A stretch of DNA of 64,000 nucleotides from Rhodococcus jostii NBRC 16295 (GTDB lineage: Bacteria > Actinomycetota > Actinomycetes > Mycobacteriales > Mycobacteriaceae), in assembly GCF_001894825.1 (NCBI RefSeq), contig NZ_BCWY01000028.1, positions 1 through 64,000 on the forward strand. Direction: 5' to 3'. This document shows, piece after piece, positions 8,122 through 24,553 of the stretch. A program made the translations under genes and the position numbers. Positions within the stretch are counted from its first letter, which is position 1; each line of letters begins with the position of its first letter. Under the pieces are notes generated by a model. The model had not been told where the DNA came from and did no database searches. It saw only the letters and a list, made by a program, of their open reading frames with translations.

Positions 8122-10554
8122 CTAGTTCAACGTCACCTCGCTCGACTTGCGCGCGTCGACCGACTGTTCGGTCAGGCTGTCGGTTTTGCACTGGAAGTTC
8201 CGGTACATGTCCATCTGGTCGCTGTAGTGCCGTGACCGCGTACCGTCCGGTGCGATGAATCCGCTCTGGCCGGGCGGTCCGACGGTGCAGAGGTCGGCGA
8301 TGCCGTCGCCGAGCACGATGCGGTCGTTCTGGGTTCCCCGGTTCATGTACGGCGACAGGGACAGCACCTCGTCGCTACCGGCCTGAGGGACGCCCAGGTA
8401 GTTCTTGTAGTCGAACCGGTTCGCGCTGACCGGCATCTTCCAGGCGGCGGCGTCGGGGCCCTGCTGGGTGCGTAGTGTGTCCACGGCCTGGCCGAACGTC
8501 GATCGGAGGACGGACTTCGGGTCGGCGCCGTTGAAGAAGTCGGTGGTCTGCGGAACTCCGGACTCGTTGCCGCGCAGCGCGTTGTAGACGAGTTTCGTCG
8601 CCTCGGCGGGGCGCGCGGTGCCGGCGGCGGGGTACACCTTGGCCGCGTACGAGTCGTATACGTCCTGCGGAAGGTCGTCGCGGATCACCGCGTCGAACAG
8701 GATCGGCAGCCACGTCCGCATGATCGCCGGTGCCGGGCCGTCGTACACGCCGTCCGAATTGTCGTCAGTGGCCTGTCCGTCCCAGTCGCGGAGCAACTTC
8801 ACGCCCGCGGCAACGGGGTCGCTGTCGGGAAGTTGCTCGGTGGCCTGGGTGAGGTACGGCAGCAGATAGTCGACGTTGAGGTCGGCAAACGACGTCTGCC
8901 GGTTGATGTCCCAGATCTCGCCGGGGGTGAAGTGGTCCTTGGCCTCGAGGCGAGTGGTGATCGCCTGCACGCGGTCGACGGGGGACCAGTTGTAGCCGTC
9001 GGCGAGCGCACCGGCTGCGGACTGGTTGTTCCAGTTGGCGAGGTAGCCCTGTTCTGGGTTGTACGACTGCGGGTTGTCCTCGAACGGGCGGATGCCCTCC
9101 CACTCCATGCTGCCGTCACCGATCGCCGGAAGTCGAAGGTCCTGCCCGGCCGGGCGGACCGGCAGTCGACCGGGGGATACATAACCGATGTTTCCCTGAT
9201 TGTCGGCGTAGTACCAGTTGATGGTGATGGCCACCTTCTTCGCCTGCTCGAGGAATTCGTCCCAGCTCGTGGCCTTCATGATGTCGATCCAGGCGACCAG
9301 TGACTGGATCTCGTACCCAGCCCAGCTCTCCTTCAGGGAGTAGGCGCTCCCGTTCGGGGTGTCGAAACTGGTGACCCGGCCGTGGACCGTCGAGTAGACG
9401 GGGTACGCCACGTCTGCGCCGCCTCGCACCTTGATCGTCTCGTTCCGGACCTCCATCGGCCGGTACTCGCCGTCGTGCCGGTATGCGTGCTCGTTCGCGG
9501 GATCGAGCACCTCCTGATAGACGTCGTTGACGTCGAGCGGCCCGGCGGTGGCGCCCCACGAGATCGTCTTGTTGGTGCCGAACAGGACGGTCGGGACGGC
9601 GTAGGGGGTGTTACCCGCGACGTCGAAACCGGCGCCGTGCAGGCCCACCCCGTAGACGTAGGACGGGTTGAACCAGCCGAATTGCGGTCCGTTCATCAGG
9701 ACGGACGTGCCGTCGGTGGTCTTGTCGGCGCCGACCATCCACAGGTTGCTGGCCTCGGGTTTCATGTGCGGCCATTCGCCTCCGCCCGCGTTCTTCATCC
9801 GGGTCAGATTCGCGTCGGGCAGGGCCTGGGTCACGTCGGAGAGCCCGGCTTCCTGGGACATTGCATGCGGCTCGTCGGATGAATCGGACTCGTCACGCGG
9901 AACCGTGGTCGGAGCGCCGGGATCTTCCTCGGGCCAGATCAGCTGGTCGAAGAGTTGCCGGCCCTTCTCGTCGCCGTTCTTCGCCTGCAGGCTCCTGAGG
10001 ACCTGGAGGTTGGCGAGTTCACTGCTCGACTGGGAGAATCGGTTGGCCATGGTCTGCACCCAGACCATCGCGACGTCGTACCCGGTCCAGTGCTCCGGCC
10101 GGAAATTGCCGTCCAGGAACTGCTTTGGCATCAGGTGTGACGGATCCGCCTCGACCTCGTCGATCCGCTTGTTGAACCCCTCGGCGTAACCGTCGAAGAT
10201 GTCGCGCTCATCCTGCGGCAGCCCGTTGAGTTGATCCTTGATCGACTGTGGATCGATGCTGTTACGCGCCGTCTTGTCGATCTCGACGTAGTCCGGTCCG
10301 AGCACCTCGGCGGCCGTGCCGACCGACGACCGCTTGGCCATCTCCATCTGGAACAACCGATCCTCGGCAACCGAGTAGCCGTAGCCCGAGTACAGCGCGC
10401 GCGTGGTGTCGGCGTACACGTTGGGGATTCCGTAGCCGTCCCTCTTCACGGTGATACCGGATGTGGGGGACTGCTGACCTTCGGTTGCCGTGCAGGCCGT
10501 CAGCAGCACGCTGAGTCCGACCCCGAGGGCCAGCACTGCCCTCGTCGTCTTCAT
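8122..10554 (-). CDS. Penicillin acylase family lipoprotein (Ntn hydrolase)
   Basis: An 810-residue N-terminal-nucleophile amidohydrolase of the penicillin G acylase / acyl-homoserine-lactone acylase family. The start is a lipoprotein signal peptide with lipobox LLTAC (Cys21), so the enzyme should be anchored outside the membrane. The family opening GYGIPNVYADTTRALYSGYGY is present, and the autocatalytic site is at EA|SNLW: Ser269 would become the N-terminus of the beta chain after excision of the spacer. These enzymes hydrolyse N-acyl bonds of beta-lactams, AHL signals or lipopeptides; the substrate here is unknown. ATG at 10554 has GAGG 6 bases upstream and is preferred over TTG at 10560. 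Confidence 0.88.
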   Translation of the reverse strand: MKTTRAVLALGVGLSVLLTACTATEGQQSPTSGITVKRDGYGIPNVYADTTRALYSGYGYSVAEDRLFQMEMAKRSSVGTAAEVLGPDYVEIDKTARNSIDPQSIKDQLNGLPQDERDIFDGYAEGFNKRIDEVEADPSHLMPKQFLDGNFRPEHWTGYDVAMVWVQTMANRFSQSSSELANLQVLRSLQAKNGDEKGRQLFDQLIWPEEDPGAPTTVPRDESDSSDEPHAMSQEAGLSDVTQALPDANLTRMKNAGGGEWPHMKPEASNLWMVGADKTTDGTSVLMNGPQFGWFNPSYVYGVGLHGAGFDVAGNTPYAVPTVLFGTNKTISWGATAGPLDVNDVYQEVLDPANEHAYRHDGEYRPMEVRNETIKVRGGADVAYPVYSTVHGRVTSFDTPNGSAYSLKESWAGYEIQSLVAWIDIMKATSWDEFLEQAKKVAITINWYYADNQGNIGYVSPGRLPVRPAGQDLRLPAIGDGSMEWEGIRPFEDNPQSYNPEQGYLANWNNQSAAGALADGYNWSPVDRVQAITTRLEAKDHFTPGEIWDINRQTSFADLNVDYLLPYLTQATEQLPDSDPVAAGVKLLRDWDGQATDDNSDGVYDGPAPAIMRTWLPILFDAVIRDDLPQDVYDSYAAKVYPAAGTARPAEATKLVYNALRGNESGVPQTTDFFNGADPKSVLRSTFGQAVDTLRTQQGPDAAAWKMPVSANRFDYKNYLGVPQAGSDEVLSLSPYMNRGTQNDRIVLGDGIADLCTVGPPGQSGFIAPDGTRSRHYSDQMDMYRNFQCKTDSLTEQSVDARKSSEVTLN

Positions 10555-10901
10555 CGACAACCTCGGGTCCGGTCCGTCGCAGACCGGTGGCGATCACATC
10601 GATACATCTCGCTCCTATAACCGTACGTTCGGTTGGTATATCGGGGTATTGTGTCGTGAAACACGATCGTCGTCAAGAGTGGTGGTGGCCTCCGGATTCG
10701 ATCCCGGCGATACTGTGGATGCTGGCACGATCCACATCGCACCTTGCGGTCCCGGAATATCGGTCGGACCGCCGCGACGCCTCAGGCCAGGACTCGACGC
10801 GGTAGTGCCGGCGTGTAAATCGCCCGAATCCTACTGAACCAGAATTAGTTTCGGTGCGGCGGCCTCGATCCCGCGCGGTACTCGCGCCGTGAGCGTCGGC
10901 G
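10555..10901. other. Upstream region of the acylase gene; no gene seen
   Basis: These 347 bases hold no credible coding frame. They contain the promoter side of the acylase gene and two short palindromes: AACCG-N6-CGGTT at 10619-10634 and TCGTG-AAA-CACGA at 10654-10666. Either could be a regulator site. Nothing else is recognised. Confidence 0.5.
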
Positions 10902-15475: not shown

Positions 15476-17608
15476 TTACGCGAGGATGACGAGTTGCCGG
15501 GTCGCGCGGGTCATCGCGACATAACGGTCGACGGCTCCTTCGATGCCGTCGCCGAACGACTCCGGATCGACGAGGACGACGAGATCGAACTCGAGGCCCT
15601 TCGACAGTTCCGGGGTCGACGACCGCATGCGGGTTGTCGCCCGGAACGTCGGATCCCCGATGACACAGGCGATTCCGTCGGAGTTCGATTCGAACCAGGT
15701 GTCGAGGATCGAGTGCAGATCCGACGCAGATCCGTGCACGACGGGGATGCCGCTGTGGCGGATGGAGGTCGGCACGTTGGCGTCCGGAAGCGCGGCCCGG
15801 ATGACCGGCTCCGCTTCCGTCATGATCTCTTCCGGAGTCCGGTAGTTGACGCTCAGGGCGGCCAGGTCGATCCGGTCGAACCCTATCCGCCCGAGCCGTT
15901 CCTTCCATGACTCCGTGAAACCGTGCCGTGCCTGGGCGCGGTCCCCGACGATGGTGAAGCTCCGGGACGGGCAACGGAGCAACAGCATCTGCCACTCCGC
16001 GTCCGTGAGTTCCTGAGCCTCGTCCACCACGATGTGCGCGAACGGCCCGGCGAGCAGGTCGGGGTCGGCGCTCGGCAGGGCGGACTCATCGACGAGGGTC
16101 TCCTGCAAATCCTGGCCACGCAGCATCGACATCACCAGCAACTCGGAGTCGTCGGCCGCGATCAGGTCGTCGACGACACTGCTCATACGCGCGCGTTCGG
16201 CCGCGACGGACGCGTTGTACCGCCGTTGACGACGGGACGCCTCCGGGTCTCCGAGCCGCTGCCGTGCCGCGTCCAAGAGCGGCAGGTCGGACACAGTCCA
16301 GTTCTGGGCGTCCGCGCGCTGCAGTTTCCGGACCTCGTCCGGGCTGAGCCAGGGCGCGCACTTGCGGAGGTAGGCGGGCACCGACCACAGGTCGGCGACG
16401 AGGTCGGCAGCTTCGATCATCGTCCACGCGTTGTCGAGGATCGTGCGCAATTCGTCGTTCTGCAGCAAAGACTTCCGGAGCTGGGCCGGCGGAACATCAC
16501 CCTCGCACTTGTCCACCAGGATCGTGAGCAGCAGTTCCCAGATCTGCTCACGCGCTTCGTTGTGCGGAGTACCGGGTTCCGGTGCTTCGAACGCCTCGGC
16601 CCAGTCGTCGGGGCTCAGCCAGATGTCGGACCAGTCGGTCGCGACCGTCATCCCCTTCGTGGGTGGCTCCTCGTAGAATCTGACGGCCGCTTCGATCGCC
16701 TTCACCAGATCCGCGGACGACTTCAGGCGAGCCACGTCCGGGTCGGATTCGATCTTCGCGGTGGAACCCTCGGCCACGAGGTCCCGCAGGGTGCAGAGTT
16801 GCACGCCCTCCTCGCCGAGGCTGGGCAGGACATCGGCGACGTAGGCCAGGTAGGGCTCGTGCGGGCCGACGAACAGCACGCCGTGACGGAGTCGAGGGTC
16901 GGAATAGAGCAGGTACGCGGCGCGGTGCAGCGCGACGACGGTCTTGCCTGTGCCCGGGCCGCCGTCGACGACGAGGGCGCCGCCGGATCCCGCCCGGATG
17001 ATGGCGTCCTGATCGGCCTGGATGGTGCCGAGCACGTCCCGCATCCGCGCCGACCGGTTGCTACCCAGGCTGGCGATGAAGGCGGACTGGTCGTCGAGGG
17101 CGGCGTTCCCTCCGAACCCGTCCGACGTGAACACCTCGTCCCAGTAGTCGCCGACCCGCCCGCCGGTCCAGCGGTACCGGCGACGGCGCGTCAGTCCCAT
17201 CGGGTTGGCGTGGGTCGCCCCGAAGAACGGCTCGGCCGCGGGGGAGCGCCAGTCGACCAGCAGCTGATTGCCCGCGCTGTCCATGAGGCCGAGACGTCCG
17301 ACGTACACGGGCTCGGGGTTCTCTGCGGTGACGATGTGGCCGAGGCACAGGTCCAAGCCGAAGCGACGCAGGGCGCGCAGTTCCGCAGTCAGCTGGTGGA
17401 CCATCATGTCCCGCTCCAACGCCTCCTGGCCCAGGCGGCGGGGCGCCTTGCGTTCGGCATCGATGCGGTTCGACAGGTCGGCTATCGACTGTTCGAGGCT
17501 GTCCGCGATCGCGAACAAATGCCGCTCGTCGCCGGCGATCAGTGTCGGGTCAGCCTTGGGCGCGAGGTGGTCGGGAAGGTCGAACACGCTGGTGGTCAGG
17601 GGGCTCAC
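15476..17608 (-). CDS. helR: HelR, RNA polymerase recycling ATPase (rifamycin protection)
   Basis: A 710-residue UvrD/HelD-like superfamily 1 ATPase. It has a coiled-coil-prone N-terminal arm (residues about 28-85), a Walker A motif GGPGTGKT at 216-223, and a Walker B/motif II IVVDEAQELTDAEW. Length and organisation match actinobacterial HelD/HelR. HelR displaces rifamycin-bound RNA polymerase from DNA and protects transcription. The call of HelR rather than a generic HelD rests on context: it is ATGA-coupled (17605-17608) to a macrolide-type glycosyltransferase resembling rifamycin glycosyltransferase, with an RAE-like palindrome upstream of both. It acts in the cytoplasm with RNA polymerase. 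Confidence 0.87.
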   Translation of the reverse strand: MSPLTTSVFDLPDHLAPKADPTLIAGDERHLFAIADSLEQSIADLSNRIDAERKAPRRLGQEALERDMMVHQLTAELRALRRFGLDLCLGHIVTAENPEPVYVGRLGLMDSAGNQLLVDWRSPAAEPFFGATHANPMGLTRRRRYRWTGGRVGDYWDEVFTSDGFGGNAALDDQSAFIASLGSNRSARMRDVLGTIQADQDAIIRAGSGGALVVDGGPGTGKTVVALHRAAYLLYSDPRLRHGVLFVGPHEPYLAYVADVLPSLGEEGVQLCTLRDLVAEGSTAKIESDPDVARLKSSADLVKAIEAAVRFYEEPPTKGMTVATDWSDIWLSPDDWAEAFEAPEPGTPHNEAREQIWELLLTILVDKCEGDVPPAQLRKSLLQNDELRTILDNAWTMIEAADLVADLWSVPAYLRKCAPWLSPDEVRKLQRADAQNWTVSDLPLLDAARQRLGDPEASRRQRRYNASVAAERARMSSVVDDLIAADDSELLVMSMLRGQDLQETLVDESALPSADPDLLAGPFAHIVVDEAQELTDAEWQMLLLRCPSRSFTIVGDRAQARHGFTESWKERLGRIGFDRIDLAALSVNYRTPEEIMTEAEPVIRAALPDANVPTSIRHSGIPVVHGSASDLHSILDTWFESNSDGIACVIGDPTFRATTRMRSSTPELSKGLEFDLVVLVDPESFGDGIEGAVDRYVAMTRATRQLVILA

Positions 17609-18867
17609 GGCAACAGCTCCGATCTGAGGTTCGTGGTGGTGGATCCAGATTCTCGGCTGGTCGAGTCGAGCAGCAGCTTCGCGGCCACCGTCGCCCCGTC
17701 GGTGCGGATCGCGCCGGCGACGGCGGTCGCTCGGGCGCGGGTCTCAGCGGTCAGCGTCGCCCTGAGTGCGGCCGACAGGGACTCGAAGGTCGGAGTCGGA
17801 CCGTCGTGCGCGGTGCCGATGCCCAGCGCGGCCACCCGGCCGGCCCAATACGGCTGATCCACCGCCTGGGGTATCACCACCTGCGGCGCGCCGGCCCGGG
17901 TGGCCGTCGTGGTGGTGCCCGCGCCGCCGTGGTGCACGACGGCCGCCACCTGGGCGAACAGTGCCTGCTGGTTGACCTCGCCGACAGCGAAGCAGTCGTC
18001 CTGGTCGTCGATCAGGGCCAGGTCGGCCCAGCCGCGGGCGACGAGTGCGCGGTGGCCCTGCGCGCGGATCACCTCGATGGCCACCTGGGCGACGTCCGTC
18101 GATGCGCGCATGGGCATGCTGCCGAAGCCCACGTACACCGGTGGTGTTCCGGCGTCCAGGAACGCCACCAGTTCGTCCGGGAGCGGGCGTTCGTCCGGCA
18201 GGATCCACGCGCCGGTCTGCACGACGTCGAGGTCCGCCGGCGTCTGCCACGGGTCCAGGGCCGGGTCCGTCGCCAGCCACGGCTGCTCGCCGATGACATA
18301 GTCGCGGACGTTGTCGACCGGCGGCAGGCCGATCGACGCCCGGTGAGTGTCGAGCGCCTCGCCGAACAGCGCGTCGATGCTCTGGGAGTCCAGGTCCCAC
18401 AGCATCCGGTTATCGGTCACCTCCGGCGGGAACGGCCGGCCTGGATACGCCAGTGGCGGGTGGTACGGCGACGGCAGGGTGAGCTGCTGGAAGGCCGCGT
18501 ATACGTACCGGATGCCGAGCTTCTCGGCCACCGACCGTGCGCCGGCCGCGGCAGGCATCACGCCGGTCGCGACCAGTGCGTCACATCCCTCGGCCGCGGC
18601 GGTGATCGCGGCGAACTGGCTGGCAATCAATTCGGATGCTCGCCGGGGCAGGTCAGTCGACGACGGCGCCGCCGCGGTGGTCAGCGCGCGCGCCGACTGG
18701 CCGAAGGGCACCATCGGCACGCCGACCCCGGCGAGCCGCTGCGCGAAATCCTCGTCCGGTGGTGCGCACACCCGCACCTCGGCGCCGAGTTCCCGCAACG
18801 CCACCGCCAGACCCACCAGCGGTTCGACGTCTCCGCGCGACCCGTACGTCGACAACAACACACGCAA
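17605..18867 (-). CDS. rgt: Glycosyltransferase, probable rifamycin glycosyltransferase
   Basis: A 420-residue GT-B glycosyltransferase of the MGT/UGT type. The N-terminus LRVLLSTYGSRGDVEPLVGLA is the acceptor-domain opening. The donor-sugar region is seen in VYVGFGSMPMR and AAVVHHGGAGTTTTATRAGAPQVVIPQAVDQPYWAGRV (the HxGG-GTT signature). I chose the TTG at 18867 because GGGAG lies 8 bases upstream and the family starts exactly here; GTG at 18882 is an alternative. The 3' end overlaps helR by ATGA, so the two are translated together. Rifamycin glycosyltransferases inactivate the drug by modifying the ansa bridge. The substrate is inferred from helR and the upstream element. Confidence 0.85.
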   Translation of the reverse strand: MRVLLSTYGSRGDVEPLVGLAVALRELGAEVRVCAPPDEDFAQRLAGVGVPMVPFGQSARALTTAAAPSSTDLPRRASELIASQFAAITAAAEGCDALVATGVMPAAAGARSVAEKLGIRYVYAAFQQLTLPSPYHPPLAYPGRPFPPEVTDNRMLWDLDSQSIDALFGEALDTHRASIGLPPVDNVRDYVIGEQPWLATDPALDPWQTPADLDVVQTGAWILPDERPLPDELVAFLDAGTPPVYVGFGSMPMRASTDVAQVAIEVIRAQGHRALVARGWADLALIDDQDDCFAVGEVNQQALFAQVAAVVHHGGAGTTTTATRAGAPQVVIPQAVDQPYWAGRVAALGIGTAHDGPTPTFESLSAALRATLTAETRARATAVAGAIRTDGATVAAKLLLDSTSRESGSTTTNLRSELLP

Positions 18868-19208
18868 TTCGTCTACTCCCACTTCGTCGGTTCCCGCTTC
18901 GATTCGACGATTCTGCGGCACGACCCGGGCCTTGCCGCAAGACCCCCTGTGCGCTATAAATTGAAAGTGGAAGAGGTTGTACTTCGCTTCCTTCATCGTC
19001 CGATACGGACGGAAACTTCCTTGCAAGCGACGAGACGCCCCATGTGGCGGGCGAGGCGTGAATCACGGACGCGCCGCCTCGAGTAAAGCCCCGTTGACTC
19101 GACAGATGCAAGATTACGTAGCACGCGTTCGTCCCGGCGCACCAAGGATTTCGGGCGCCAGGACGAACTCGTTGTTGCTGACTACAGTTGGTGGTTGTGA
19201 CGGCGCGG
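18868..19208. other. Upstream region of the rgt-helR operon; no other gene
   Basis: These 341 bases have no credible gene. They hold the RAE-like palindrome (18927-18945), a plausible promoter reading leftwards, and a second palindrome CGTCCG-ATA-CGGACG at 18997-19011. The remaining right-hand part lies beyond the stop of the monooxygenase gene, and I see nothing in it. Confidence 0.5.
18927..18945 (-). promoter_or_regulatory. Rifamycin-associated element (RAE)-like palindrome
   Basis: On the minus strand the 19 bases read GGGTCTTGCGGCAAGGCCC, an inverted repeat with arms CTTGC/GCAAG around a central G and flanking GGG/CCC. It lies 60-78 bases upstream of the rgt start. RAEs are 19-bp inverted repeats found before rifamycin-inactivation genes and helR in actinobacteria and needed for rifamycin-induced expression. 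TTGCGG inside it (18935-18940) could be the -35 of a promoter with CAGAAT (18910-18915) as -10, spacing 19; that part is tentative. Confidence 0.75.
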
Positions 19209-20408
19209 TTACACCATCCGGCGGTTGTCGTCGGTTTGGAGGCCGAGGATGAACTCGGCGTGGCTTTCGAAGCCCGCCTCGCTCATCACTCCGTGAGCGG
19301 AGATGGTGTTCAGGTCGCGGAGGAGTTTCGACAGGATGCTGTCCTCGAGGATTGCGCCGGCGCCGGCGTGCCGGAAGGCGCGGGTGACCACCTCCACCGA
19401 GGTTTTCGCGGCAAGTGAGGCGGCGGTCTGCATCTGGTCGAGCAAGGGGAGTTGGACCCGGCCGCAGGCGTCGACAACGTCGTTGACCTGGTGCAGGGTG
19501 TCGATGCACAGGCTGCGGGCGGCGCGGATGCGGGCGTCGAGTTCGCCGAGTTCGCGTCGGAACCAGGTGAGTTCGGTGAGGGCGGGGGGTTGTTGCAGGT
19601 TGATGCGTCCACCGCGCCGGATCTTCGGTGCGGCGGTGATGATTTCGTCGAGCGCGCGGCGGGCGGCGCCGAGGACCATGCCGGGATGCATCTGCAGCAC
19701 GAACGGCACCATGCCGAGGCGGGACAGGGCGGTATCGGTGCGTCGGCCCTCGCCGAGCGGGTCGTAGATCATGTCGTCGGGGACGAAGACCTGCTCGGCT
19801 TTGAAGCTGCTGCTGCCGGTGCCGCGCATGCCCAGGACTCGCCAGTCGTCGAGGACATCGATCTCGGCGCGGGGCAGAAGCGCTGCCCGGCGAACGGTCT
19901 GACCGTCCTCGTGGTCGATGAGGAAGGTGGCGGTGACGTAGTCGGCGTGGTGCAGGCCGCTGACGAAGTCCCAGCGGCCGCTCATCACGTACCCGCCGTC
20001 GACCCTCGTTGCCGTGCCGGGTTTGAGGGAGCCGGCCTTGAGGGCGATGCCGGAGGCGAAGATCTTCCGGGCGGTGTCGTCGCTGACGACGGTGGCGAGT
20101 TCGCCGGCACCTTCGAGGAGGATGGTCGCGGTCCAGGCGGTGGCGGGGTCGATGTGCCCGATCTTCTCGATCACCTCGAACGCGGTCACCGCATCGACGA
20201 CGTTGCCACCGAGATCGTCGGGAGTCATGATGCCGAGGACCCCGGAATCGCGAAGGGCATTGATGGAGCGGTCGCTCAGGCGGCGTCCCGCCTCGGATTC
20301 GGCAGCGCCGGCGGCGAGTTCGTCGCGGATGGCGTCGACAGCGGCCAGTGCGGTGGCGCGGCGGTCGACACGGGCGAGCGGCCAAGCACTCGGGGCGGTG
20401 ATGGTCAT
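19209..20408 (-). CDS. Acyl-CoA-dehydrogenase-fold flavin monooxygenase (oxygenase component)
   Basis: A 399-residue protein of the acyl-CoA dehydrogenase fold, closest in layout to group D two-component flavin monooxygenases such as HsaA, IacA and DszC. Features are DSGVLGIMTPDDLGG near residue 55, the flavin-binding middle segment (GGYVMSGRWDFVSGLHHADYV, WRVLGMRGTGSSSFKAEQVFVPDD) and a C-terminal helical bundle (AFRHAGAGAILEDSILSKLLRDLNTISAH). It lacks an obvious CoA-substrate context, and a flavin reductase gene sits 51 bases upstream in the same unit to supply reduced flavin. It probably hydroxylates an aromatic or heteroaromatic substrate; which one is unknown. Confidence 0.83.
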   Translation of the reverse strand: MTITAPSAWPLARVDRRATALAAVDAIRDELAAGAAESEAGRRLSDRSINALRDSGVLGIMTPDDLGGNVVDAVTAFEVIEKIGHIDPATAWTATILLEGAGELATVVSDDTARKIFASGIALKAGSLKPGTATRVDGGYVMSGRWDFVSGLHHADYVTATFLIDHEDGQTVRRAALLPRAEIDVLDDWRVLGMRGTGSSSFKAEQVFVPDDMIYDPLGEGRRTDTALSRLGMVPFVLQMHPGMVLGAARRALDEIITAAPKIRRGGRINLQQPPALTELTWFRRELGELDARIRAARSLCIDTLHQVNDVVDACGRVQLPLLDQMQTAASLAAKTSVEVVTRAFRHAGAGAILEDSILSKLLRDLNTISAHGVMSEAGFESHAEFILGLQTDDNRRMV

Positions 20409-20459
20409 GGTGGCGGGTTCCTTTTCAGCTGGTGGGTTCGGGTCGGAAGATCCGAGAAT

Positions 20460-20987
20460 TCACATTCGGACCGGGGTTGGCAGGGGAGTGTGGATCCCGA
20501 ACCGGCGATTGCGGTAGGCGAGGGTTTGGGTGTGTTGCTGCTCGAGCGTGACCACGTATCCGAGGACTATGACGTGGTCGCCGCCACCGACGATCCGGGC
20601 GACGTCGCAGCCGAGCCAGCCGGGGACGTCGAGCAGGCGCGGCAGTCCGGTTTCGGGATGCCAGGGCGTCTGAGCGAACTTGTCGATGCCGCCGGTGGCG
20701 AAGTTGAGCGCGAGTTCCTGGTCGCGTTCGCCCAGGATATTGACTCCCATCCGGCCGGTGGCGGTGATGGCGGAAAGCACCCGCGAGCGTCGGTCGAGGG
20801 CAACGGTGACCATGGGCGGGGTCAGCGACAGCGAACTGAAGGCGCTGACCGTGGCCCCGACCGGGGTGTCCTCGTTCATCGCGGTGATCACCGTGACCGG
20901 TGAGCACAACGAGGCCATCGCATCCTTGAATGCATCGGCGATCGACGCCGAGCAGGACGTGCCCGTGGAGTCCGTGGTAATCGTCAT
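20460..20987 (-). CDS. Flavin reductase component of a two-component monooxygenase
   Basis: A 175-residue FMN/FAD reductase of the HpaC/HsaB-type flavin reductase family. The core signatures are ASLCSPVTVITAMNEDTPVGATVSAFSSLSLTPPMVTVALD and GRMGVNILGERDQELALNFATGG. It uses NAD(P)H to make reduced flavin for the monooxygenase encoded immediately downstream. GAGGGAATC precedes the ATG. A terminator hairpin lies between this gene and the ABC transporter genes upstream, so the reductase and monooxygenase probably have their own promoter in the 148-base gap. Confidence 0.87.
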   Translation of the reverse strand: MTITTDSTGTSCSASIADAFKDAMASLCSPVTVITAMNEDTPVGATVSAFSSLSLTPPMVTVALDRRSRVLSAITATGRMGVNILGERDQELALNFATGGIDKFAQTPWHPETGLPRLLDVPGWLGCDVARIVGGGDHVIVLGYVVTLEQQHTQTLAYRNRRFGIHTPLPTPVRM

Positions 20988-21104
20988 GATTCCCTCACTT
21001 TCGTGGTCTGCTGTCGGGAGTTGTTCTGGCTCAATCCTGCTCGGCGTCCGTTCGGTGGGGCATCCCCAGAAGTCGGCATTTGCGCCGGCACCGGGAACTG
21101 GTCA

Positions 21105-21132
21105 CCGCCGCCTGCGTCACCGCAGGCGGCGG
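21105..21132. terminator. Hairpin at the end of the ABC transporter operon
   Basis: A perfect 12-bp stem CCGCCGCCTGCG / CGCAGGCGGCGG with loop TCAC lies 3 bases past the stop codon of the ABC ATPase gene. Confidence 0.72.
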
Positions 21133-21135
21133 CGG

Positions 21136-21963
21136 TCAGCGGCGGATCAGGCCGAGAACGTGGGCGCGCAGCTCGGCGAATGCCGGCTCGAGTTTGGTGC
21201 GTAGTTGATCGCGGGGTGCGGGCAAGGGAACGGCGATGATCTCGGTGACCGATGTCGGGGCACCGGACAACACGATGATCCGGTCCGCCAGATAGACGGC
21301 TTCGTCGATGTCGTGGGTGACGAGGACGATGGTCATCCTCAATTCGTCCCGCAGACGAAGCATCAGGTCCTCGAGGTCCGCTCGGGTCTGCGCGTCGACC
21401 GACGCGAACGGTTCGTCCATCAGCAGCACCTGGGGTTGACAAGCGACCGCGCGGGCGATGGCGGCGCGTTGCTGCATGCCACCGGACATCTGCCAGGGAT
21501 ACAGTGACCCGGCATCGGCCAGACCGACGGCCTCGAGCGCCTGCTCGGCGAGGCGGAGCCGCTCGGCGCGGTTCGAGCCGAGTCGGCGCAGCGGCAGCAT
21601 GACATTGCGCAGCACACTCATCCAGGGCAGCAGTGATCGAGAGTAGTCCTGGAAGACCAGGGAAAGCCCTTTCGGGGGTGCCGTGATCTTCTGCCCGTGC
21701 AGTGCGACCTCACCGGCGTCGGGGGCCAGCAACCCGGCAAGGCAGCGCAAGAGGGTGGTCTTCCCGGCGCCGGACGGTCCGACGACGGTGACGAACTCGC
21801 CCTGATGGACGGCGAATGTGACATCGGCAAGGATCTGCCGGGTGGCTGGGCCGCGGCCGTAGGATTTCGCCACCGCTCGCACGTCCAGACTGAGCGGCGT
21901 GCCGGATGTAGCGCCGTGGGCCGTGCCGGCCGATGCGATGCCCGAGGTCGTGGATGTGGTCAT
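21136..21963 (-). CDS. NitT/TauT-type ABC transporter ATPase
   Basis: A 275-residue ABC ATPase of the nitrate/sulfonate/taurine (SsuB/TauB) class. Walker A GPSGAGKTT is at 62-70, the signature is MSGGM (159-163, a variant of LSGGQ), and Walker B VLLMDEP is near 179-185, followed by THDIDEAVYLADRI. ATG 21963 has GGAGG 9 bases upstream and overlaps the stop of the upstream permease gene by ATGA. It energises import with the two permeases and the binding protein upstream. Confidence 0.9.
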   Translation of the reverse strand: MTTSTTSGIASAGTAHGATSGTPLSLDVRAVAKSYGRGPATRQILADVTFAVHQGEFVTVVGPSGAGKTTLLRCLAGLLAPDAGEVALHGQKITAPPKGLSLVFQDYSRSLLPWMSVLRNVMLPLRRLGSNRAERLRLAEQALEAVGLADAGSLYPWQMSGGMQQRAAIARAVACQPQVLLMDEPFASVDAQTRADLEDLMLRLRDELRMTIVLVTHDIDEAVYLADRIIVLSGAPTSVTEIIAVPLPAPRDQLRTKLEPAFAELRAHVLGLIRR

Positions 21964-22754
21964 GATGCAGAACCTCCTTGCCCAGCTGTCCTGAGCCCGT
22001 GGTACCAGCGGAGTAGATATCGTTCGATGCCGCGAAATGCGATGTTGCTCGTGTAGCCGAGACCTCCGAGAAGTATGAGCGCCGACCACATTTCGGGGAT
22101 GGCGAAGGTGCGCTCTGCGTGCAGTTGCACGTAGCCTATTCCGTGTGTGGAGGCGACGTATTCGCTGGCGATGATGAGCACGACGCCGAGCGCGACGCTG
22201 ATCCTCGCCCCGGCCAGGATCTGTGGACTCGCACCGGGCAGGATCACCCGCAGCAGCCGGTGGTGCATCGGGATGTGGTAGCTGCGCATCATGTCTCGCA
22301 CGAGTGGGTCGAGGGAACGGACCCCGTCGATGGTGCCGAGCAGGATCGGCCAGATCGCGCCATAGGCGATTACCGCAACCTTCATGCCGTCGCCGACTCC
22401 GATCAGCACGAGAAAGACGGGGACGAGAACGATGCCGGGAACCGACCGCATGAACTCGAAGACCGGGAGTGCAGCGTCGTACAGGCTTTCGCGCAAGGCG
22501 AGCACCAACCCCGCGCCGATTCCGATCACGGTCGCGATGACGAGCCCGACCAGGAAGTTCCGCACGCTCGGAACGGCATCGGACCCGACCCGGTCGAACA
22601 ACCACATCTGCTGAAAGGTCTGCGCCACCTGCTGCAGGGGTGGGAAGTAGAAACTGCTACCGCGGGCGGTGGCCACCCAGACCAGGACGATCATCAGGAT
22701 CGGCAGCCACAGCTCCATGGCCGCCGCGCGGACCGCACGTACGCCTTGTCTCAT
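21960..22754 (-). CDS. NitT/TauT-type ABC transporter permease 2
   Basis: A 264-residue inner-membrane permease of the SsuC/TauC family. The EAA loop is seen in DPLVRDMMRSYHIPMHHRLLRVILPGASPQILAGARIS, with about six helices around it. ATG 22754 shares its A with the TGA of the preceding permease gene (TGATG), and its 3' end overlaps the ATPase start by ATGA, so the three are translationally coupled. Confidence 0.88.
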   Translation of the reverse strand: MRQGVRAVRAAAMELWLPILMIVLVWVATARGSSFYFPPLQQVAQTFQQMWLFDRVGSDAVPSVRNFLVGLVIATVIGIGAGLVLALRESLYDAALPVFEFMRSVPGIVLVPVFLVLIGVGDGMKVAVIAYGAIWPILLGTIDGVRSLDPLVRDMMRSYHIPMHHRLLRVILPGASPQILAGARISVALGVVLIIASEYVASTHGIGYVQLHAERTFAIPEMWSALILLGGLGYTSNIAFRGIERYLLRWYHGLRTAGQGGSAS

Positions 22755-23584
22755 CACCGCACCGTCTCTCTGTTGGCCGGCGCCCACGGGAGCAATCGCC
22801 GTTCGAGATAGAGCAGGATGACGTTCAGGCCGACCCCGAGTAGCCCCGCGACCACCAGGTAGGCAAACATCACATCGACGGCGCCGGCCTGCTGCGCCAT
22901 GCCCAGAGATTTCCCGAGACCGGGTGCGGAGCCGAGGTATTCGGCGGCCGTGGTCAGCATCAGCGCGATGGCCGCCGAGATGCGCAGCCCGGTAGCGACG
23001 AACGGCAGCGCGGTCGGCAGAACCAGCCGGAGCATACGATCGATGCGGGGCAGGCGAAGTGATCGCACGGTATCCGCGGCGACCGGGTCGACGTGCCGGA
23101 CTCCGTCGATGGTGGAGGTCAGTAATGGCCAGCACGCTCCGAACACGACCAGGAGGACCTTCATCTGCATGGTCGAGCCCAGGATGAGGAGCAGCACCGG
23201 GGTGAGCGCGACGGCGGGGATGGTCCGCAGGAAGTCGATGACGAGGCGGGTGCTGCGGGTGAGGAACTGCGACGTGCCGATGAGCAGACCGGCGGGGATG
23301 GCGATTGCAGCGCAGAGCAGCAGACCGATGCCCCATCCGGTGGCCGTCTGCTCGACGGTGCGCCAGAATTCCGGGGTGGTCAGCATCTTCGCGAGCGTGA
23401 GCACGGTCCGCGTTGCGGTCGGAATCGACGTGGCGGGGAGTAGCCCGGACTGTACCGTCAGCTGCCAGCACACCAGGGCGGCGAGGATGAAGCCCGCCCG
23501 AGCAGCTACTCGGCGGTGGAGTTGTGAGAGCTGTCGCGGAGGTGATTTCGTGGCAGCCGGTGTGGGTCGTACGAGTGTGGTCAT
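22754..23584 (-). CDS. NitT/TauT-type ABC transporter permease 1
   Basis: A 276-residue permease of the same family as its downstream neighbour. The EAA loop is DPVAADTVRSLRLPRIDRMLRLVLPTALPFVATGLRIS. Two different permeases imply a heterodimeric channel, unlike the single-permease ssu and tau systems. It starts 6 bases after the binding-protein stop codon. Confidence 0.88.
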   Translation of the reverse strand: MTTLVRPTPAATKSPPRQLSQLHRRVAARAGFILAALVCWQLTVQSGLLPATSIPTATRTVLTLAKMLTTPEFWRTVEQTATGWGIGLLLCAAIAIPAGLLIGTSQFLTRSTRLVIDFLRTIPAVALTPVLLLILGSTMQMKVLLVVFGACWPLLTSTIDGVRHVDPVAADTVRSLRLPRIDRMLRLVLPTALPFVATGLRISAAIALMLTTAAEYLGSAPGLGKSLGMAQQAGAVDVMFAYLVVAGLLGVGLNVILLYLERRLLPWAPANRETVR

Positions 23585-23590
23585 GATTGC

Positions 23591-24553
23591 TCAGCTCATC
23601 AACTCGTCGATATCGACCGGGCCGGAGACGAAGGTGTACTGCTCCATCAGGCCGGTCCACAGCGTCAGTGCCGCGTGTGGGTCGGTGGCATCGAACTCCG
23701 GCAAACGCATCGCCGGAAGCAGTTCGGCCGGAATCGGACTGATCTTCGGGAGCGCCGCACGTACTTCGTCCGGGTGCGTGGCCGCGTATTCGATGCCCTT
23801 GTTCAACGCCCGGACGAAGCCCTCGACTGCCTCCGGGTGCTCCTTCTCGAACGTGGCCGATGTGGCCACCGTCAGCTGCATCCCGCCGGGCACTGCCTCG
23901 GCGCCCGGTGACATCAATCGGGTGGCGCCCTCGGCGAGGGCGGCGGTGTCGAACGGAGAGATCGTGCTGATCGCGTCCACCCGTCCCTTGGACAGTGCGT
24001 CCGTCATGTCCGAGAGCGGCATCTCGAGGAACTTCACTCCGGCGCTGTCGGCGCCGGCCTTGTCCAGGGCGGCGCGCAGGGACAATTCGCCGCTGCCCTC
24101 GAGGGCCCCGACGGCGACGGTCTTGCCGTTGAGGTCCGCGGGGGTCTTGACCGGGCTGTTCTTCGCGACGAGTACTACCCCGGTGTCCTCGGCGGGGATG
24201 TCTGTGCTCTTGGTGACTCCGCCGATGATTCGAACGGGCAGACCTTTGTCGAAGGCTTGGACGACGATTGCAGTCTCGCCGAGCGCGAACTGGTCTGAGC
24301 CGTTCACCAGATTGGTGATCATCGCGCCCGCGTTGGTGACGTCGGGTGTGGCGTTGAGTCCCTCCTCCCGGAAGAAGCCCTTGTCGACGGCAAAGGTGAA
24401 CGGAACGGAATCGACGATGGGCAGCTGGCCGACCGTGACGTCGAGCAGCCCGTCGGTCCGGGAGTCTGCGTTGGAAGAGCTGCAACTCGCGGTCGACACC
24501 AGCGTGAGTGCAATCATGCCGGCGAGGACGGCGTGTCGAGAAGGTATGAGCAT
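23591..24553 (-). CDS. ABC transporter substrate-binding lipoprotein (NMT1/SsuA-like)
   Basis: A 320-residue binding lipoprotein. The signal peptide MLIPSRHAVLAGMIALTLVS leads to a lipobox STASC with Cys24 as the lipid attachment site. The mature protein has the NMT1/TauA pattern: VGQLPIVDSVPFTFAVDKGFFREEGL, a ligand-loop AGAMITNLVNGSDQFALGETA, and PVKTPADLNGKTVAVGALEGSGELSLRAAL. Such proteins bind sulfonates, nitrate, pyrimidine precursors or aromatic acids; residues alone do not settle the ligand. It is the first gene of the four-gene importer operon. Confidence 0.88.
   Translation of the reverse strand: MLIPSRHAVLAGMIALTLVSTASCSSSNADSRTDGLLDVTVGQLPIVDSVPFTFAVDKGFFREEGLNATPDVTNAGAMITNLVNGSDQFALGETAIVVQAFDKGLPVRIIGGVTKSTDIPAEDTGVVLVAKNSPVKTPADLNGKTVAVGALEGSGELSLRAALDKAGADSAGVKFLEMPLSDMTDALSKGRVDAISTISPFDTAALAEGATRLMSPGAEAVPGGMQLTVATSATFEKEHPEAVEGFVRALNKGIEYAATHPDEVRAALPKISPIPAELLPAMRLPEFDATDPHAALTLWTGLMEQYTFVSGPVDIDELMS

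Follow-up and report, generated by a model that had tools for sequence, protein, structure and literature searches.

Can a single rifamycin signal deploy two layers of resistance, inactivation of the drug and protection of its target? The question is raised by a locus of Rhodococcus jostii NBRC 16295 (contig NZ_BCWY01000028.1, positions 1 to 64,000; this whole stretch of 64,000 nt is referred to as the window). Here, a gene for a glycosyltransferase resembling the rifamycin-inactivating enzyme Rgt is directly followed by helR and is preceded by a palindrome resembling the rifamycin-associated element (RAE). The literature consulted treats RAE control one gene at a time, for drug-modifying enzymes and for HelR alike. 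A preliminary description of the window proposed that one signal commands both genes, and this interpretation is supported by the present analysis. The locus is very probably a rifamycin-inducible resistance operon, with the Rgt-like enzyme and HelR behind one RAE, and we infer co-transcription, glycosylation of rifamycins, induction and joint resistance.

Organisation of the probable operon

The three pieces named in the preliminary description (a relative of rifamycin glycosyltransferases, HelR and an RAE) were all recovered by family models and motif matching (Table 1). The 420-residue glycosyltransferase was found as an open reading frame (ORF) counted from a TTG start, which was chosen to match the start of the family; the frame is open further upstream and longer starts are possible. 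The HelR-type ATPase scored over the cut-off of its family model, and the 19-bp palindrome indeed lies 60 bases upstream of the TTG. The overlap between the two genes had been given as ATGA and is in fact GTGA on the coding strand (TCAC on the forward strand), that is, 4 bases shared by GTG and TGA. In 11 of the 17 other rgt-helR pairs examined, helR is preceded by CGGAG, the exceptions being five pairs of family f15 and a pair with a second HelR type (see below). A conserved third gene was sought in 97 loci; a thioesterase-like ORF 3′ of helR was found in one, that of a near relative.

The palindrome shares 18 of 19 bases with the RAE consensus, taken here as GGGGCTTGCGGCAAGGCCC. Matches this close numbered 0.04 on average in 100 shuffles of the window, none of which held two. 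In the literature the RAE is described as a 19-bp palindrome, which the window element resembles in size and symmetry. The element falls within the predicted promoter and 5′ untranslated region (UTR) of rgt, with a conserved -10-like hexamer at a fixed distance. In Mycobacterium smegmatis the RAE and the -35 of the second helD promoter overlap; deleting half of the RAE abolishes rifampicin induction of helD, and the same deletion also took out the -35 of promoter 2 (PMC10719064). RAEs before helicases have been noted as well (PMC10194278).

Table 1. Features of the probable rgt-helR operon and its candidate promoter in the window.
Feature	Position	Strand	Basis or remark
GT1 glycosyltransferase, Rgt-like, 420 aa	17605..18867	-	TTG start; PF06722, PF03033; NF000354 521 bits, cut-off 800
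HelR, RNA polymerase recycling/protection ATPase, 710 aa	15476..17608	-	GTG start; NF041254 1266 bits, cut-off 750
RAE palindrome GGGTCTTGCGGCAAGGCCC	18927..18945	-	1 mismatch against the consensus used
-10-like hexamer CAGAAT, predicted sense promoter	18910..18915	-	-35 = TTGCGG within RAE, spacer 19 (hand-derived)
TATAGC block immediately upstream of RAE (TCAAN-TATAGCGCAC)	18953..18958	-	Conserved module component
GGGAG, likely ribosome-binding site of glycosyltransferase gene	18876..18880	-	Sequence; 8 nt before TTG
GGAG, likely ribosome-binding site of helR, within 3′ end of glycosyltransferase gene	17617..17620	-	Sequence

Recurrence of the rgt-helR pair

The pairing of rgt with helR is not unique to the window and recurs in many actinobacteria. 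Rgt-like genes were gathered as the best hits of several searches and not as a random sample, excluding hits of <330 query residues or <250 bits; 183 were found, leaving 173 distinct genes once 10 identical proteins were removed, and some of the loci end soon after rgt. Upstream matches to the RAE were bimodal, with 0–3 mismatches in 106 genes, 4–5 in five and ≥6 in 62. Elements of the first group stand 21–135 nt before the matched start (median 47), inside the 15–140 nt considered. Directly 3′ of the 173 genes lay HelR in 35 cases and a second type in six (41 of HelR type in total), with neither in 132; types were assigned by whether identity to the window HelR exceeded 58%, and one of the second-type partners was scored against NCBIfam. 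A HelR-type partner was more frequent behind genes with an RAE (35/106) than behind those without (6/67; Fisher p = 2e-4, kinship ignored). No RAE was found between rgt and helR in the 18 pairs examined, where the best site had 6 mismatches.

Within the genus, rgt was present in 6 of 28 genomes and was directly followed by a HelR-type gene in all six. The follower is HelR in five of them and the second type in the other (G024; NF041465 1407 bits and NF041258 1351 bits, both over cut-off). HelR at least 78% identical to that of the window was found in 13 of the 28. In a sample of 397 genomes of the order, 67 had rgt matches and 163 had HelR over cut-off; at least 7 adjacent pairs were seen. Moreover, a scan of named genomes, in which the best 80 of 575 confirmed stretches were kept, returned pairs from Streptomyces, Nonomuraea, Nocardia, Kutzneria, Actinokineospora and a Mycobacterium metagenome-assembled genome (MAG). 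The pairing state switches at least 22 times on a quick tree, a rough count given the open forks, and the second HelR type is scattered over the Rgt tree. The operon is not described in the passages seen of PMC10719064, PMC12802891, PMC8655204, PMC7283461, PMC13246000, PMC12241128, PMC10194278 and PMC13214531. Each component is known; we found no description of this recurrent, joined variant in the literature searched, as far as those passages extend.

Two further arrangements were seen. Five rgt-HelR pairs of family f15 (L160–L164), which entered the sample largely because they were pairs, have no RAE-like site (best 7–9 mismatches), so another switch must drive them. Two Streptomyces loci (L182, L195) carry upstream of rgt a second exact RAE on the opposite strand, which in L195 precedes a divergent helR.

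Loss and mobility of the cassette

Of eight relatives that lack rgt and retain RAE and helR, six were examined (all except G021 and G023), and in these the RAE stands directly before helR. A closer inspection of the RAE-helR gap revealed pieces of both rgt ends in G026 (412 nt; L174) and a piece resembling the rgt start in G027 (147 nt; L173). A few bases like the rgt start were recognised by eye in the 111-nt gaps of G005, G008 and G010 (L170, L171, L172), and no trace of rgt was found in the 57-nt gap of G015 (L175). These remnants between RAE and helR point to deletion of rgt in some relatives. On the simplest reading of the sequences, RAE-rgt-helR would be the older state in at least part of the group, rgt having been deleted and RAE-helR kept.

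Similar cassettes are found on megaplasmids. In aligned pieces, identity to an Embleya megaplasmid is 83.7% over window positions 15482–18963, and identity to a Streptomyces megaplasmid is 82.8% over positions 15479–18976. Rgt-like genes occurred in 19 records of a plasmid collection, 5 of them at <60% identity and one record being chromosome-sized.

The host genome

The host genome (9.7 Mb, 286 contigs) holds three RAEs with at most 1 mismatch. These lie before arr (rifampin ADP-ribosyltransferase; NF033144 203 bits, cut-off 130), before the rgt-helR operon and before rox (rifampin monooxygenase; NF033145 930 bits, cut-off 800). A search with PF00562 returned one rpoB match, in which the rifampicin region is unaltered. 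The genome therefore appears, from its sequence, to guard a sensitive single rpoB by three modifying enzymes and HelR, all RAE-linked.

The glycosyltransferase and HelR

The glycosyltransferase combines an EryCIII-like domain (PF06722) with a GT28 domain (PF03033), and its top NCBIfam family is that of the rifamycin-inactivating Rgt (NF000354, 521 bits). Its score is below the cut-off, and for this reason the enzyme is named Rgt-like and not certified Rgt. No match among 397 genomes from the order and 394 from the class reached the cut-off of 800 (best 714), and none did in a further sample of 247 genomes. Tandem-cluster glycosyltransferases, presumed to be glycopeptide-like, served as controls in a quick tree with many open forks. 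They form one clade of 17 rows (SH-like approximate likelihood ratio test, SH-aLRT, 100) in which none has an RAE. The window gene falls in a clade of 33 rows (SH-aLRT 99), all but 4 of which have an RAE within 3 mismatches. Rgt-like enzymes are thus separate from the presumed glycopeptide-like controls and tied to the RAE, and by its kin the window enzyme probably disables rifamycin antibiotics by attachment of a sugar. A glycopeptide-type enzyme had been considered from the GtfB structure match and was dropped after the tree.

HelR carries GGPGTGKT at residue 216 (Walker A), DEAQE at 529 and, at 119, DWRSP as the secondary-channel motif DWR[A/S]P, Walker A and DWRSP being intact. Its nearest solved structure is M. 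smegmatis HelD (6yxu, 349 bits). Acidic residues at the candidate tip of the primary channel loop (PCh-loop), which is shorter than in the mycobacterial type, are also present in the other HelR rows compared. A second HelD/HelR-type gene was found in 21 of 24 highly complete genomes of the genus, including that of the window. In published work HelR releases rifampicin from RNA polymerase, and HelD proteins recycle stalled polymerase without the drug (PMC10719064).

A conserved module around the RAE

A conserved module of ~75 bp is centred on the RAE; the sequence suggests it to be a promoter, and it is new as far as the passages of the literature consulted extend. In a gapless alignment on the RAE of 48 named rgt loci (those of 55 sites within 200 nt of a gene start; three are alphaproteobacterial), conservation reaches far past the 19 bp. 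The flanking blocks are TCAAN-TATAGCGCAC directly upstream and GTGCCG-CAGAAT downstream (window 18946–18964 and 18910–18926). In the CAGAAT hexamer A is found in 48/48 and T in 45/48 loci, and the TATA positions are conserved in 43–45. Every one of 99 actinobacterial rgt sites and 28 helR sites has A-NNN-T at the CAGAAT position, in a scan that is blind to strand because the pattern is its own reverse complement. The same frame is found before helR, with the RAE within 3 mismatches in 28 of 30 loci examined, as well as upstream of rox and, less strictly, of arr.

A profile of the flanks alone, omitting the 19 RAE columns, was trained on these 127 sites (99 rgt and 28 helR), the window site among them. 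That site scored 69.5 and was the sole score >12 in 127,800 window positions (99.9th percentile -38.5). Outside the training set, the rox and arr sites of the same genome scored 67.7 and 15.1. Three RAE-like sites with 2–3 mismatches elsewhere in the genome (L004–L006) scored -88 to -70 and were rejected as RAE modules. Viral contigs searched for the RAE gave 6 exact-pattern matches, none with the surrounding module by eye.

On the other strand, the upstream block contains TANGTT, a -10-like hexamer. Its distance from the RAE centre equals that of CAGAAT, both hexamers lying 21–26 bp from the centre as measured by hand from the alignment columns. CAGAAT as a -10 fits the overlap of the RAE with the -35 of the published second helD promoter (PMC10719064). 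The published first promoter, which starts ~20 bp upstream of the RAE, is unaccounted for by the module reading. Further upstream, an imperfect dyad (≥7/9 pairs) is present in 57% of rgt sites (shuffles 20%), 50% of helR sites (shuffles 21%) and 14% of seven alphaproteobacterial sites (shuffles 10%); it is weak in the window. Counts of wobble pairs at rgt sites gave no signal that the dyad acts as RNA (G-T 31 against 29 expected, A-C 39 against 44).

As a tentative and rather unlikely proposition, the RAE may be the shared -35 core of a two-sided promoter module, and not the operator of a dedicated regulator, so that RNA polymerase itself would sense rifamycin through promoter competition.

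RAE-like sites beyond Actinobacteria

RAE-like palindromes were also found 40–58 nt before rgt-like genes of Bosea lupini, two Mesorhizobium (one a MAG), Microvirga lotononidis and a Devosia plasmid, in the last of which the gene is in pieces. The same arrangement, again at 40–58 nt, occurs in four more genomes from the family of one Mesorhizobium. Two more distant plasmid hits came from Gemmatirosa and Devosia neptuniae. Eight of the nine distinct loci (L220, L240, L250, L291, L292, L295, L297, L298, L299) have 0–3 mismatches and L295 has 5; in L292 and L295 the palindrome arms are kept and the centre is changed. Among the core sites whose surroundings were inspected in three such genomes (all except palindrome G776:C57), the only ones within 2 mismatches of the full element are those upstream of rgt. 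The rigid flank profile supports the Bosea site (14.9) and gives no support to two Mesorhizobium sites scored with it (-42, -46). The alphaproteobacterial rgt loci yielded no HelR match. Such sites before rgt in Alphaproteobacteria suggest that the RAE sensor may be RNA polymerase itself; conversely, sensing by polymerase at competing promoters would explain the presence of RAE-rgt units there. A record named Mycobacterium sp. KBS0706 (L217) has an Rgt that groups with the alphaproteobacterial ones and may be mislabelled.

Neighbouring genes

Elsewhere in the window, positions 8122–10560 (minus strand) hold an 812-aa lipoprotein-like ORF, which presumably resembles a penicillin acylase family enzyme. 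The gene at 19209–24553 (minus strand) weakly matches flavin monooxygenases of the HsaA, SfnB and DszC types, all below cut-off, and its neighbours, as read from the ORFs, resemble an ABC transporter.

Discussion

Rifamycin entering the cell would raise transcription from a promoter whose -35 lies inside the RAE, judging by work on RAEs in mycobacteria and streptomycetes. One transcript would then yield both the GT1 enzyme and HelR. The former, by its kin, would attach a sugar to rifamycin and thereby disable it; the latter, as published for other HelR proteins, would enter RNA polymerase and remove the bound drug. Together with the RAE-linked arr and rox this would make a regulon of three drug-modifying enzymes and one target-protection protein guarding a single unaltered rpoB. 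The lack of an RAE between the genes in the 18 pairs examined, the recurrent pairing and the RAEs before arr and rox fit one signal deploying both layers.

Several observations weigh against this reading. Neither the RAE nor the HelR link is obligatory, since 61 of the 173 rgt-like genes are without both, 71 have an RAE and no HelR and 6 pairs are without a matching RAE. Loose RAE matches genome-wide (up to 3 mismatches) number 6 and 4 against 7 and 15 for a reversed-pattern control, and at up to 2 mismatches several of 28 genomes hold at least as many control matches. The case for the RAE therefore depends on the nearest matches, where they lie and what flanks them. In HelR, DDSE at residues 486–489 of the PCh-loop aligns loosely near E484 and D485 of M. 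smegmatis HelD, the rifampicin-release residues of the mycobacterial protein. In addition, the glycosyltransferase misses the Rgt equivalog cut-off, and its closest solved structures are the glycosyltransferases GtfB (490 bits), GtfA and GtfD, which we take to be glycopeptide enzymes. These last two points would suit a natural-product enzyme akin to GtfA/B/D that acts on a different substrate and stands behind the RAE incidentally, all the more as GtfB scores barely below the Rgt model. Such an enzyme is very unlikely given that the glycopeptide-like controls form an RAE-less clade of their own, that the clade of the window gene is mostly RAE-linked and that an RAE and HelR neighbourhood recurs around rgt-like genes.

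A further point against a joint operon is that a separate ribosome-binding site precedes helR, which could also be served by a promoter of its own. The RAE might then drive the glycosyltransferase alone while helR serves general polymerase recycling, a role that drug-free recycling by HelD proteins would allow (PMC10719064), and in streptomycetes the rgt-helR gap is often 100–230 nt. This separation seems very unlikely here: the genes overlap in the window, none of the 18 pairs has an internal RAE, the RAE directly precedes helR in the rgt-less relatives examined, and the second HelD/HelR-type gene of the genus could itself serve recycling. Alternatively, horizontal transfer could have brought the two genes together by chance near a shared promoter, with no joint advantage. 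The cassette is mobile, as its megaplasmid counterparts indicate, and at least one relative has lost rgt from the operon. Against this most improbable account, pairs with two HelR types are scattered over the Rgt tree amid repeated changes of pairing state, and the pair persists in the five f15 loci without an RAE. We thus favour the rifamycin-inducible operon. Its recurrence suggests joint selection of inactivation and target protection, a point to consider in designing rifamycins that escape one of the layers. The most promising lead is the conserved module with its alphaproteobacterial members, which makes the question of the sensor behind the RAE (PMC12802891) directly testable with RNA polymerase.

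The nearest known counterpart of the first gene is the Rgt1438-type rifamycin glycosyltransferase of Streptomyces, reportedly under an RAE (Spanogiannopoulos, 2012 and 2014). Rgt is the best family model of the window enzyme, which differs in its sub-cut-off score, its probable TTG start and the helR directly after it. An RAE in the 5′ UTR is a further likeness, the rgt RAE being mentioned in PMC10719064. HelR of Streptomyces venezuelae (SVEN_6029) and of Mycobacterium abscessus (MAB_3189c), which clear rifampicin in published work, share with the window the HelR-type ATPase and the upstream RAE. Here, in contrast, helR comes second in an operon whose first gene encodes a drug-modifying enzyme, and the PCh-loop tip of its product is shorter than that of the mycobacterial type. 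The helD/pps dual-promoter alarm of Bacillus subtilis likewise places HelD and a drug-modifying enzyme under rifampicin-responsive control, with sensing through RNA polymerase and competing promoters (PMC12802891). As described there, the alarm uses convergent sense and antisense promoters and no RAE, whereas here an RAE has -10-like hexamers mirrored on both sides.

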